A stretch of DNA of 64,000 nt from contig NZ_VFMJ01000001.1 in assembly GCF_006715005.1 (NCBI RefSeq), positions 3,844,001-3,908,000 of the forward strand, read 5' to 3'. The translations under genes and the position numbers were made by a program. Under the pieces are notes generated by a model. It saw only the letters and a list, made by a program, of their open reading frames with translations, ran no database searches and was not told the origin of the DNA. The DNA is from Serratia marcescens (lineage in GTDB: Bacteria > Pseudomonadota > Gammaproteobacteria > Enterobacterales > Enterobacteriaceae). Shown here piece by piece: positions 10,427 through 56,837 of the stretch (positions are counted from its first letter, which is position 1; every line of letters begins with the position of its first letter).

Positions 10427-11704
10427 TCACCCGCGGAACCGATACTGCTCGATCGACGACGGATGCATCTCGATCGAATAGCCGGGACGGCTCGGCGGCA
10501 TGTAGGCCGCACCGTTGATTACGCAGGGATCGACAAAGTGTTCATGCAAATGATCGACGTACTCGATCACCCGGCCTTCGTGGGTGCCGGCAATGCACAG
10601 GTAGTCGATCATCGACAGGTGCTGCACGTACTCGCACAGCCCGACGCCGCCGGCGTGCGGGCAGACCGGCAGCTGGTATTTGGCCGCCATCAGCATCACC
10701 GCCAGCACTTCGTTGACGCCGCCGAGGCGGCAGGCGTCGATCTGCACCACGTCTACCGCGCCGCGCATGATGAACTGCTTGAACATGATGCGGTTCTGGC
10801 ACATCTCACCGGTGGCCACCTTGACCGGCGCCACCCCTTCGCGGATGCGACGATGCCCTTCCACGTCGTCCGGGCTGGTCGGCTCTTCGATAAACCAGGG
10901 TTTGGCGAACGCCAGGTGCTTCACCCACGGAATGGCTTCGTCCACCTCCCACACCTGGTTGGCGTCGATCATCAGCCGGCGATCCGGGCCGATCACCTCG
11001 CGGGCGATGCGCACCCGGCGGATGTCGTCTTCCAGATCGCGCCCGACCTTCAGCTTCAGGTAGGAGAAACCGGCGTCGACCGCTTCCTGGCACAGGCGGC
11101 GCAGCTTGTCGTCCGGGTAGCCCAGCCAGCCGGCGGAGGTGGTGTAACAGGGATACCCCTCCTGCAGCAGCCGCTCCAGGCGCCGCTCTTTGCCCTCGGC
11201 CCGCTGTTTCAGCAGCGCCAGCGCCTCCTGCGGCGTGATGCAGTCGGTGATGTAACGGAAGTCGATGCAGCGCACCAGTTCCTCCGGCGTCATCTCCGCC
11301 ACCAGCCGCCATACCGGCTTGCCGACCGATTTGGCCCACAGATCCCACACCGCGTTGACCACCGCGCCGGTCGCCAGGTGAATGGCGCCTTTGTCCGGCC
11401 CGATCCAGCGCAGCTGGCTGTCGCTGGTGAAGCGCCGCCAGAAGGCGCCCATGTCGGCGGCGATATCCTCCAGCCGCTCGCCGACGATCTGATGCTCCAG
11501 CGCGCGGATCGCCGCGCAGCAGATCTCGTTGCCGCGGCCGATGGTGAACGTCAGCCCATGGCCGCTGAGATCCGCGCGATCGGTCTCCAGGATCACGTAG
11601 GCGGCGGAATAGTCGGGATCCGGATTCATGGCGTCGGATCCGTCCAGCCCCAGCGACGTGGGGAAACGAATGTCTTCAACCCGCAGTGCGGTAATGGTGG
11701 TCAT
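10427..11704 (-). CDS. L-fuconate dehydratase (enolase superfamily)
   Basis: This 425-residue enzyme should convert L-fuconate to 2-keto-3-deoxy-L-fuconate. Enolase-superfamily residues are all visible: Lys217-x-Lys219 (YLKLKVG), metal ligands Asp247 (MIDAN), Glu273 (FIEEP) and Glu300 (ATGE), and His350 (VCPH). Their spacing matches, with a one-residue offset, what I recall of the characterised Xanthomonas campestris L-fuconate dehydratase. It is the best-supported functional anchor of this operon. Confidence 0.93.
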   Translation of the reverse strand: MTTITALRVEDIRFPTSLGLDGSDAMNPDPDYSAAYVILETDRADLSGHGLTFTIGRGNEICCAAIRALEHQIVGERLEDIAADMGAFWRRFTSDSQLRWIGPDKGAIHLATGAVVNAVWDLWAKSVGKPVWRLVAEMTPEELVRCIDFRYITDCITPQEALALLKQRAEGKERRLERLLQEGYPCYTTSAGWLGYPDDKLRRLCQEAVDAGFSYLKLKVGRDLEDDIRRVRIAREVIGPDRRLMIDANQVWEVDEAIPWVKHLAFAKPWFIEEPTSPDDVEGHRRIREGVAPVKVATGEMCQNRIMFKQFIMRGAVDVVQIDACRLGGVNEVLAVMLMAAKYQLPVCPHAGGVGLCEYVQHLSMIDYLCIAGTHEGRVIEYVDHLHEHFVDPCVINGAAYMPPSRPGYSIEMHPSSIEQYRFRG

Positions 11705-55092: not shown

Positions 55093-55634
55093 GACACTCC
55101 CTCCCAAAAGCGAAGCAGCCAATATAGGAGGGGTTTGTTTACCTTTTGTTACGCTTGTGTGATCTTATTTTCACAGCGTGGATTTTTTGCGAGAATTCTT
55201 TCAATGGCAGGCGATAACGGAGAAGATATAACTTATTAATTAGCTATAGTTTTTAATGGAATAATCACAGGACGGGCGCACTCACCTAACGGGTAGCAGA
55301 GCCTGAAATGTGAAAATAGTGACAGCCGCACCGGGCCCAGGGCAACGACGAGAAGAAATCGCCTCAGCCCGTCCGCAATAAGGGCATTATGATGCTTTCC
55401 ACCGCTGCCTCCAGTGATATCACCTTTTTTAGCCAAGAAGATTCTCAATTCCCGTCATAAAAATATCGACAGAAAATAAATACTCGCATATATAACCAAA
55501 CAATATTCCACGTTGGATATATTATTGCCAACGGCTTATCAGCTGTTATATTTTTAAATTGAAATAGCGCGGCAGCGTTATTTTCGGTATTAATTAAACT
55601 CACTAAGTCACCCTTTTATTTATAAGGATTGTAT
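55093..55634. other. 542-bp intergenic region between exbD and the microcin-like gene
   Basis: This stretch is much more A/T-rich than its surroundings, especially 55450-55634, and serves as promoter region for both divergent transcripts. A minus-strand frame at 55236-55448 has no ribosome site or recognisable product. I find no immunity or export gene here. Confidence 0.6.
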
Positions 55635-55937
55635 ATGAAAGTACTTAGTCAATATGAAGAGCAGTACGTTAGCGGTGGCGATCTGAACGCGGCCTGGGAT
55701 GGGTTGCTGGACGGCGCTATGACCGGCGCGCTGATTGCAGGCAAATCCGCAGGGGCCGGCGGCTTTATTGCCGGCGCCGTCGGCCAACTGGTCGGTACCA
55801 TTATCGGCGGCGTCGCAGGCGGCGTGGGGCTGGGGCTGTATGGCCTGACGCATACGCAGCAGGAAGTGGCGGACTACGCAAAACATTTCCGCGAAACTAT
55901 CGGCTCCACCTCGACCTCGGTCGGCGGCAGCCTGTAA
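55635..55937 (+). CDS. Double-glycine leader peptide, class II microcin-like precursor
   Basis: This 100-residue protein starts MKVLSQYEEQYVSGG, which aligns with the microcin V leader at Leu-12, Glu-8, Val-4, Ser-3 and Gly-2/-1, so cleavage after residue 15 by a C39-peptidase ABC exporter is expected. The 85-residue core is Gly/Ala-rich with two hydrophobic stretches (GAVGQLVGTIIGGVAGGVGL) and a Ser/Thr/Gly-rich tail (GSTSTSVGGSL). No cysteine is present. AAGGA lies six bases before the ATG and a terminator follows. No immunity or transporter gene is adjacent. Base composition upstream is A/T-rich, which suggests foreign origin. Confidence 0.72.
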   Translation: MKVLSQYEEQYVSGGDLNAAWDGLLDGAMTGALIAGKSAGAGGFIAGAVGQLVGTIIGGVAGGVGLGLYGLTHTQQEVADYAKHFRETIGSTSTSVGGSL

Positions 55938-55947
55938 GCACGAATAG

Positions 55948-55980
55948 ATAGTCACCCTCGCGGTGGCTATTTATTTTATT
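55948..55980 (+). terminator. Terminator after the microcin-like gene
   Basis: ATAGTCACC-CTCGC-GGTGGCTAT (one G-U pair) is followed by TTATTTTATT, ten bases after the stop codon. Confidence 0.75.
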
Positions 55981-55992
55981 GCCACCCTCACC

Positions 55993-56568
55993 CTACGCGC
56001 CCGCTGAACGCGTTATCATTATCGCATCCCGATATTCTTTCAAGCCTGAGGTTATCGCCTCGGTATTCAATTGCGAAACCATCCACGGGCTGAAAGCGAA
56101 AGGCGTTAATTTTACCGCCGCCATTAAATGATTGAGCTCGACCCAGGCATAATCCGCAACCTCATCCGGATTGCCATGGAGCGTGCCTTTAATTTGCGCG
56201 GCAAATACCGGGCAAACTTCATTCTCCATCACGCCGGACGCGTCGGTAGCCTGGTAGCTGAATGCCTCGCTCAACAGCATTATCTGCTCCACCTCCGTGC
56301 CCAGTTCAACCTGGGCGCGGCGCCTCACCGCCTGTGCCAGCGCCTCTTGCGGCAAGGGGTGGCCGCAAAAGGAATTAGTCCAAACGCCCGGCCACGCGGT
56401 TTTACTCAATGCGCGCCTTGTGGCCAGCACGTTGCCCTCTGAGGTAAAGAGGTAACATGAAAAGGCCAAATGCAGCGGCGTATGGTGCGTGTGCACCTGA
56501 TTTTTCGGCATCGTCCCGCAAGGCTGCCAGGCGGCATCGAGCAAAACGACGTCTTCGTTATTCATCAT
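55993..56568 (-). CDS. idi: Isopentenyl-diphosphate delta-isomerase, type 1
   Basis: This ~191-residue Nudix-fold enzyme interconverts IPP and DMAPP. TRRALSKTAWPGVWTNSFCG carries the catalytic Cys (NSFCGHP), and ENEVCPVFAAQ the catalytic Glu. ATG 56568 (MMNNEDVVLLD) is preferred because GGAA lies six bases upstream and E. coli Idi starts here; the frame is open to 56613, where an ATG overlaps the upstream stop (ATGA). In E. coli idi is isolated; here it follows a decarboxylase-subunit gene, probably by chance. Confidence 0.9.
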   Translation of the reverse strand: MMNNEDVVLLDAAWQPCGTMPKNQVHTHHTPLHLAFSCYLFTSEGNVLATRRALSKTAWPGVWTNSFCGHPLPQEALAQAVRRRAQVELGTEVEQIMLLSEAFSYQATDASGVMENEVCPVFAAQIKGTLHGNPDEVADYAWVELNHLMAAVKLTPFAFSPWMVSQLNTEAITSGLKEYRDAIMITRSAGA

Positions 56569-56609
56569 TGCGATTTCCATAAAAGACGGATGCTTGCCCG
56601 CCTTCAGTC

Positions 56610-56837
56610 TCATTTCGTCAGAAGAGGAGGAATGGCCGGCACGTCCGGCGCATTATCGATATCCTGCTGAGTCATGCGAAACTCAGGCGGATAATGTTCC
56701 CGTTCCGTTCTGCCAGCAGGCTCGGTATTCCGCCAGGTATAAAGACAGTGCTGGCATTGATATACCGTCCCTACGCCCTTCACCGGTGAATGTATCATGA
56801 TGTCTGTCTGTTTATCGGCCCGACAAGGACAAATCAT
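56610..56837 (-). CDS. Orphan subunit D of a hydroxyarylic acid decarboxylase (VdcD/BsdD-like)
   Basis: This 75-residue protein matches the small zinc-ribbon-like subunit D of non-oxidative hydroxybenzoate/vanillate decarboxylases: SPVKGVGTVYQCQHCLYTWR, REHYPPEFRMTQQDIDNAPD and VPAIPPLL. The family normally starts MICPRCAD; here it is MICPCRAD, so the first knuckle is Cys-x-Cys rather than Cys-x2-Cys. No subunit B or C (UbiX/UbiD-like) gene is present. It may be a remnant, or it may serve a distant B/C pair. AAGGCGAG precedes the ATG. Confidence 0.75.
   Translation of the reverse strand: MICPCRADKQTDIMIHSPVKGVGTVYQCQHCLYTWRNTEPAGRTEREHYPPEFRMTQQDIDNAPDVPAIPPLLTK

Follow-up and report, generated by a model that had tools for sequence, protein, structure and literature searches.

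By what route would a double-glycine peptide leave the cell when its gene stands apart from any exporter gene, and what might the peptide do outside? The question is raised by a short gene in the window, the 64,000-nucleotide stretch of Serratia marcescens DNA analysed here, in which an initial annotation made from the letters alone had recognised a class II microcin-like precursor with a microcin V-type leader. We refer to this gene as the orphan.

The orphan occupies positions 55635–55937 of the plus strand and encodes 100 amino acids from an ATG start. A ribosome-binding site, AAGGA (55624–55628, +), read directly from the sequence, lies 6 nt upstream of the ATG and is nearly invariant in a five-genome alignment; both the 100-residue ORF and the ribosome site reported initially are thus borne out. 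Further upstream on the same strand (55525–55552) is a site that is promoter-like by consensus match only, TTGCCA and TATATT separated by 16 bases with TG before the second hexamer. Downstream, a terminator-like hairpin with a 15-pair stem (55942–55976, +) is strong at −20.6 kcal/mol (z −5.2), as expected of the good terminator described earlier, though it is absent from the list of a consensus terminator scan. The upstream flank is A/T-rich, with a GC content of 0.36–0.45 in 300-base windows versus 0.51–0.69 in nearby coding DNA.

Direct reading of the protein shows the leader followed by a Gly/Ala-rich region, then a polar C-terminal part and, last, a Ser/Thr/Gly tail, in agreement with the initial description. 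The leader, MKVLSQYEEQYVSGG, spans 15 residues (55635–55679, +) with cleavage predicted after Gly15, and the predicted mature peptide of 85 residues (55680–55934, +) comprises the glycine-rich region, a C-terminal helix and the tail. A single-sequence AlphaFold2 model is helical and of low confidence (mean pLDDT 56), with helices at residues 14–36, 43–72 and 75–96. The tail, STSTSVGGSL, at the end where class IIb microcins carry a siderophore-attachment motif, is Ser/Gly-rich by eye; the canonical form of that motif was not found in the 93 sequences of a recent S. marcescens survey (PMC13101503). A profile search, which the initial annotation had proposed, assigns residues 23–86 to Pfam DUF5862 (PF19180; E 1.8e-14, 53.7 bits against a curated cut-off of 33.3), whereas NCBIfam returned matches at E 0.4 or worse only. 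Two homologues in another Serratia genome, G028, also exceed the Pfam cut-off, and the Pfam annotation of the family gives its function as unknown.

Is the N-terminus a true leader? Class II microcin precursors carry a leader of 15–18 residues ending in GG or GA, followed by a core of 60–90 residues (PMC10233263); the orphan leader has 15 residues ending in VSGG, and the 85-residue core lies within the range. Leu-12, Glu-8, Val-4, Ser-3, Gly-2 and Gly-1 are all present, as the initial annotation had said, but its statement that every conserved position is matched was slightly too strong because position −7 is Glu in all five genomes where the consensus has Leu. That consensus, L(-12)xxxE(-8)L(-7)xxxxG(-2)G(-1), comes from PCAT substrates of Gram-positive bacteria, and leader affinity for PCAT1 was much lower with the change L(-7)A (PMC6959990); the orphan leader thus lacks the hydrophobic −7 residue of a consensus drawn from Gram-positive substrates. 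In the leader peptides of the exporter island described below, residue −7 is Met, Ile or Val. We scanned ATG-initiated ORFs of 60–180 residues in the window. A loose leader pattern matched twice, where 60 first-order Markov resamplings gave 0.43 matches on average; this, with the deviation at −7, leaves some room for the idea that a DUF5862 glycine-zipper protein here happens to have a leader-like N-terminus. We consider this highly improbable: a strict pattern, albeit one devised after seeing the peptide, matched once against a mean of 0.017 in the same number of such resamplings, and M1, L4, E8, V12 and G14 are invariant across the orphan, both G028 homologues and a 119-residue peptide of the island. 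In addition, both other settings in which we found DUF5862 adjoin an exporter, since the G028 pair and the 119-residue peptide each lie beside a PCAT. Homologues devoid of a conserved GG leader would, in the initial annotation, have counted against a microcin; the G028 homologues retain the leader, in GA form. The orphan is a genuine double-glycine precursor.

A search of other Serratia genomes, also proposed at the outset, was carried out at the protein level in 60 genomes, 30 from the genus and 30 from elsewhere, and gave matches in eight. The identical 100-residue protein occurs in five of the 30 genus genomes, namely the window's own (G000), G004, G015, G019 and G022, hereafter the carriers; G028 has its two homologues, and weak local matches in G011 and G029 (E 4e-4 to 6e-4), which cover 42 residues of frames 360 and 402 residues long, were set aside. 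PF19180 exceeds its cut-off in six of the 30, the carriers and G028, and in partly overlapping samples of the order (247 genomes), class (369) and phylum (398) it does so in the window's own genome only; two weak class-sample matches below the cut-off (G294, and G309 inside a 774-residue frame) were dropped. A scan of genome contigs found one locus, in S. ureilytica. Plasmids and phages searched for the orphan, and plasmids searched with one G028 homologue, gave no match.

Across the five carriers the orphan shows 27 variable codons, of which 27 are synonymous and none changes an amino acid. Mean synonymous difference is 0.176 for the orphan compared with 0.135 for ExbD and 0.129 for Ldt, and the gene is therefore not a recent arrival spread by copying; the G000 and G022 copies differ by one base. 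The 119-residue island peptide has eight replacement codons among 42 variable ones (p 0.019 against the orphan), and the counts for ExbD (4/29, p 0.11) and Ldt (4/68, p 0.57) do not differ significantly from that of the orphan. Purifying selection on the orphan is well supported by this comparison of sequences, that the selection is exceptional is only suggested, and the orphan is on the same comparative grounds confirmed as a real gene. These data also bear on the notion that the orphan is a relic whose cluster was lost and whose export has ended. Such a history would fit an isolated gene with Glu at −7 and no immunity gene, and it is very unlikely given 27 synonymous against zero replacement variable codons, a conserved start region and a PCAT and MFP that are full-length in all five carriers.

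The surroundings of the orphan are variable. The gene lies between exbD (−) and the convergent idi (55993–56613, −; NF002995), which encodes isopentenyl-diphosphate isomerase and which a DNA search located, among the 30 genus genomes, in the five carriers of the orphan; the query also covered vdcD, and the matches in G002 and G020 are confined to that part. In these two genomes the match to the window stops at 55325 and resumes at 56581, such that a segment with the orphan and idi (55326–56580) is absent at the same place. We define the complex as the 12 genomes in which exbD shares at least 95% identity with that of the window. In its seven non-carrier members and in G026 the exbD–ldt interval holds other material, about 0.2–1.2 kb; five of the eight show pairs of ORFs that by eye resemble HigB/HigA. 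The initial annotation had taken the A/T-rich flank as a sign of acquisition; the flank is indeed A/T-rich, but A/T richness alone is weak evidence, and the absence of the segment from G002 and G020 is the better argument.

Two further observations concern this region. In G005 the exbD–ldt site (L041 1950–2797) contains a 215-residue ORF followed by a hydrophobic 67-residue ORF, reminiscent of an effector–immunity pair; the former has no Pfam match and both are without an NCBIfam match. The vdcD gene (NF041205; window 56610–56837, −) stands alone in the window's own genome and in G022, while G004, G015 and G019 have about 2.6 kb extra at this site, including in G015 ORFs that by eye resemble vdcC, vdcB and a MarR-type regulator. 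The lone vdcD of G000 and G022 probably reflects a deletion.

No exporter gene was found adjoining the orphan. In the region 55151–56333 none of ten other ORFs of at least 25 residues is conserved as an immunity-like gene among the five carriers, where survival was judged by stops within the aligned parts of the four other carriers. Both upstream ORFs contain a stop in at least one carrier, the remaining eight overlap the orphan's coding sequence or idi, and none is strongly hydrophobic (19-residue hydropathy mean at most 1.55); on these grounds we conclude that the orphan has no adjacent immunity gene, though an unlinked one may exist. A candidate at 55445–55603 (−) was rejected because of a stop in G004. 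The initial annotation had stated that neither an immunity gene nor an exporter is adjacent and had suggested looking for small hydrophobic ORFs conserved nearby. Its statement stands, and the search, made at the orphan site, found no immunity-like ORF that survives across the carriers.

The missing immunity gene is the main gap in reading the orphan as an exported microcin, and together with Glu at −7 it departs from the canon; an immunity gene has been called requisite for secretion (PMC10233263). We file the orphan as microcin-like rather than as a member of the class because an adjacent immunity gene was sought and not found. This gap lends itself to another explanation, in which the orphan product is secreted as a double-glycine peptide but is no bacteriocin: a glycine-zipper peptide with a conserved role at the surface or in signalling, for which an immunity gene would be unnecessary. 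No conserved immunity candidate lies beside the orphan, none is obvious beside the 119-residue gene or the G028 homologues, and the protein shows no amino-acid change among five genomes, all of which would agree with such a role. The accessory distribution (five of 30), the variable site and an island that contains competition genes fit a weapon better, and double-glycine bacteriocins without an immunity protein have been reported from Bacteroides (PMC10233263). We therefore hold a non-bacteriocin role to be unlikely, though to be taken seriously.

If the orphan is exported, the machinery would be encoded elsewhere. The window's own genome contains three C39 matches, in L021, L020 and L022. 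The first belongs to an island of ~47 kb (about G000:C1:1139272–1186458; L101, L100, L021) that lies 2.7 Mb from the orphan and ends with an exporter. At this end (L021) are found, on one strand, a 119-residue GA-leader peptide with the leader MKELSVIEMNEVSGA, an MFP of 431 residues and a PCAT of 705 residues; the PCAT retains the C39 Cys, His and Asp, and PCAT and MFP are full-length in all five carriers. The island also contains T6SS genes, a LuxR-type regulator, an NRPS, a PhoPQ-related protein and a fimbrial operon, the T6SS genes (all but two) and the fimbrial genes being named by eye, as well as two further GA-leader peptides of 75 and 77 residues that are present in all five carriers. 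The 77-residue peptide is followed by a 132-residue ORF with an N-terminal hydrophobic stretch (L100 17670–18380), by position a plausible candidate for its immunity gene.

The other two C39 loci are of a different kind. L020 (5590–9607) has a LuxR-type regulator and an MFP-like ORF, together with a PCAT truncated to 207 residues at transposase-like ORFs, all names except that of the regulator being given by eye. L022 (6124–14782) has a lower-scoring C39 ABC protein in which Asn replaces the catalytic Asp; close by are a 67-residue GG-leader peptide, a thioredoxin-fold-like protein and ORFs that by eye resemble MFP, MacB and outer-membrane-factor genes. Because the L020 PCAT is cut to 207 residues and the L022 protein has Asn for Asp, the island PCAT is by its sequence the only canonical intact one in G000; it is probably so in G015 also, where two C39 matches were found, the island PCAT and one low-scoring C39 ABC protein. 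The initial annotation had called for a genome-wide search for a C39 transporter and an MFP and had held that lack of any C39 transporter would speak against a microcin. C39 transporters are present, and the genome has one intact PCAT with the C39 triad and an MFP, as expected for a class II microcin, at a locus remote from the orphan. C39 matches occur in 24 of the 30 genus genomes, and the mere presence of a PCAT therefore says little.

Several lines of evidence tie the orphan to this island. A search of the 30 genus genomes for the 119-residue peptide recovered it at 96–100% identity from all five carriers and from no other genome. A relative at 50% occurs in G002, and every further match, at E 3e-4 to 1e-3, is a DUF5862 peptide, either from G028 or from one of four carriers. 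We located the right flank of the island in 26 of the 30. The site is empty in all seven non-carrier members of the complex (7/7), where the flank resumes at L021 10445–10459 with the PCAT stop at 10451, and stretches of 11.7 kb from these genomes gave no match to parts of the island. The four other carriers match the right ~29 kb of the island at 87–96.5%, with a 0.5-kb piece at 76% in G004 and G022; the comparison covers this right part, and the left 18 kb, with most T6SS genes, lies outside it. Orphan and island, 2.7 Mb apart, thus agree in 12 of 12 complex genomes (Fisher p 0.0013), and over all 30 genus genomes p is 7e-6, a figure that ignores relatedness.

Common descent of the carriers as one clade is unsupported. 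They are scattered on an rpoBC tree of 16 tips (four changes, or five when exbD and ldt are added) and do not cluster at rpoBC, exbD, ldt or the island flank (exact p 0.42–0.79), three of these loci being flanks of the orphan or island site. What the orphan co-occurs with is the entire island, T6SS, NRPS and fimbrial genes included, and not the exporter alone; idi shares the pattern, and only 12 genomes inform the test. A shared promoter motif was not found: when the 200 bases upstream of the orphan were compared with those upstream of five other leader-peptide genes, the longest exact match ran to nine bases, a length we ascribe to chance.

Co-occurrence would also be expected if the orphan and the 119-residue island peptide together made up a two-peptide bacteriocin, by analogy with CdzC and CdzD, which act jointly in Caulobacter, with a shared immunity function located elsewhere. 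Both peptides occur in the same five carriers, both are glycine-rich and match DUF5862 (1.8e-14 and 4.8e-5), and no immunity gene is seen beside either. The 119-residue match, at 23.6 bits, falls below the Pfam cut-off of 33.3, the genes are 2.7 Mb apart, and a BLASTP comparison of the two peptides gives E 0.001, from a single comparison. We regard such a pairing as rather doubtful.

In G028 (L027 5012–9913) two tandem DUF5862 peptides of 97 residues each, 45 and 41% identical to the orphan, adjoin a LuxR-type regulator, a divergent MFP-like ORF (430 residues, by eye) and a C39 PCAT (707 residues); no immunity gene is obvious beside them, or beside the 119-residue gene, in the ORF lists. An 822-residue DUF4214 protein, possibly a further substrate or a surface partner, lies beside the pair. 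The literature search found no paper that names DUF5862 and none with the opening residues of the peptides; the link between DUF5862 and PCAT loci is drawn in the present analysis. As a tentative generalisation, which we put forward as less than an even prospect, DUF5862 peptides may be a class of their own, glycine-zipper peptides that are exported by PCATs and work with no dedicated immunity protein encoded next to them; in the S. marcescens complex this class would be split over two unlinked loci (exbD–ldt and the exporter) kept together by selection across lineages. The analysis gives DUF5862 a testable role, that of double-glycine peptides exported by C39 transporters, and provides a computed link from an orphan precursor to one remote exporter locus among several. 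Should DUF5862 peptides really have no immunity proteins, they could escape searches keyed to an adjacent immunity gene, and the survival of the producing cell would become a concrete problem.

On balance we lean towards the explanation that the island PCAT exports the orphan product in trans, as a class II microcin-like peptide directed against bacterial membranes. We infer the following course of events: the 15-residue leader would be recognised by the C39 peptidase of the island PCAT, 2.7 Mb away, which with the adjacent fusion protein and TolC would cleave after Gly15 and export the 85-residue glycine-zipper peptide. Outside, this peptide would most likely enter a related competitor's membrane in the form of a helical hairpin and make it permeable, either alone or together with the island's 119-residue DUF5862-like peptide.

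How does this compare with known systems? In microcin V the microcin genes and the immunity gene cvi form one cluster, unlike the orphan. That arrangement is partly documented in PMC13174018. Microcin V (colicin V) nevertheless has the same kind of double-glycine leader and the design of PCAT, MFP and TolC (PMC10233263) that we propose. Closer in taxonomy, microcin H47-type genes are mentioned in the genome papers of Serratia strains FS14 and SCBI (PMC4391916, PMC4506600), and Parker et al. (2026; PMC13101503) describe 93 unique class II microcin sequences from S. marcescens with matches in 96% of assemblies, microcins SM001–SM080, 17 microcins with activity and co-associated pairs. Because S. 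marcescens class II microcins are already published there, the earlier suggestion of an undescribed Serratia microcin is weakened, and the orphan may be among the 93 sequences. The likeness extends further: the precursors are of the double-glycine type, usually several per genome, only 5 of 1,562 carrier assemblies lack a PCAT, strain SM39 encodes SM020 and SM064 away from the main cluster, some peptides are statistically co-associated, and how multiple secretion systems pair with multiple microcins is described as still to be determined. Those microcins are said to adjoin their own immunity gene, whereas the orphan has no conserved adjacent one. Finally, the Cdz system of Caulobacter crescentus, Cdz-like versions of which are reported in S. 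marcescens, consists of an exporter, two peptides and the CdzI immunity gene at one locus (PMC5380434), in contrast to the orphan with its exporter 2.7 Mb away and no immunity gene at its site. Its products are small glycine-zipper peptides that leave by type I export, a route that we propose for the orphan as well, and by this analogy the Cdz peptides are its closest functional model.
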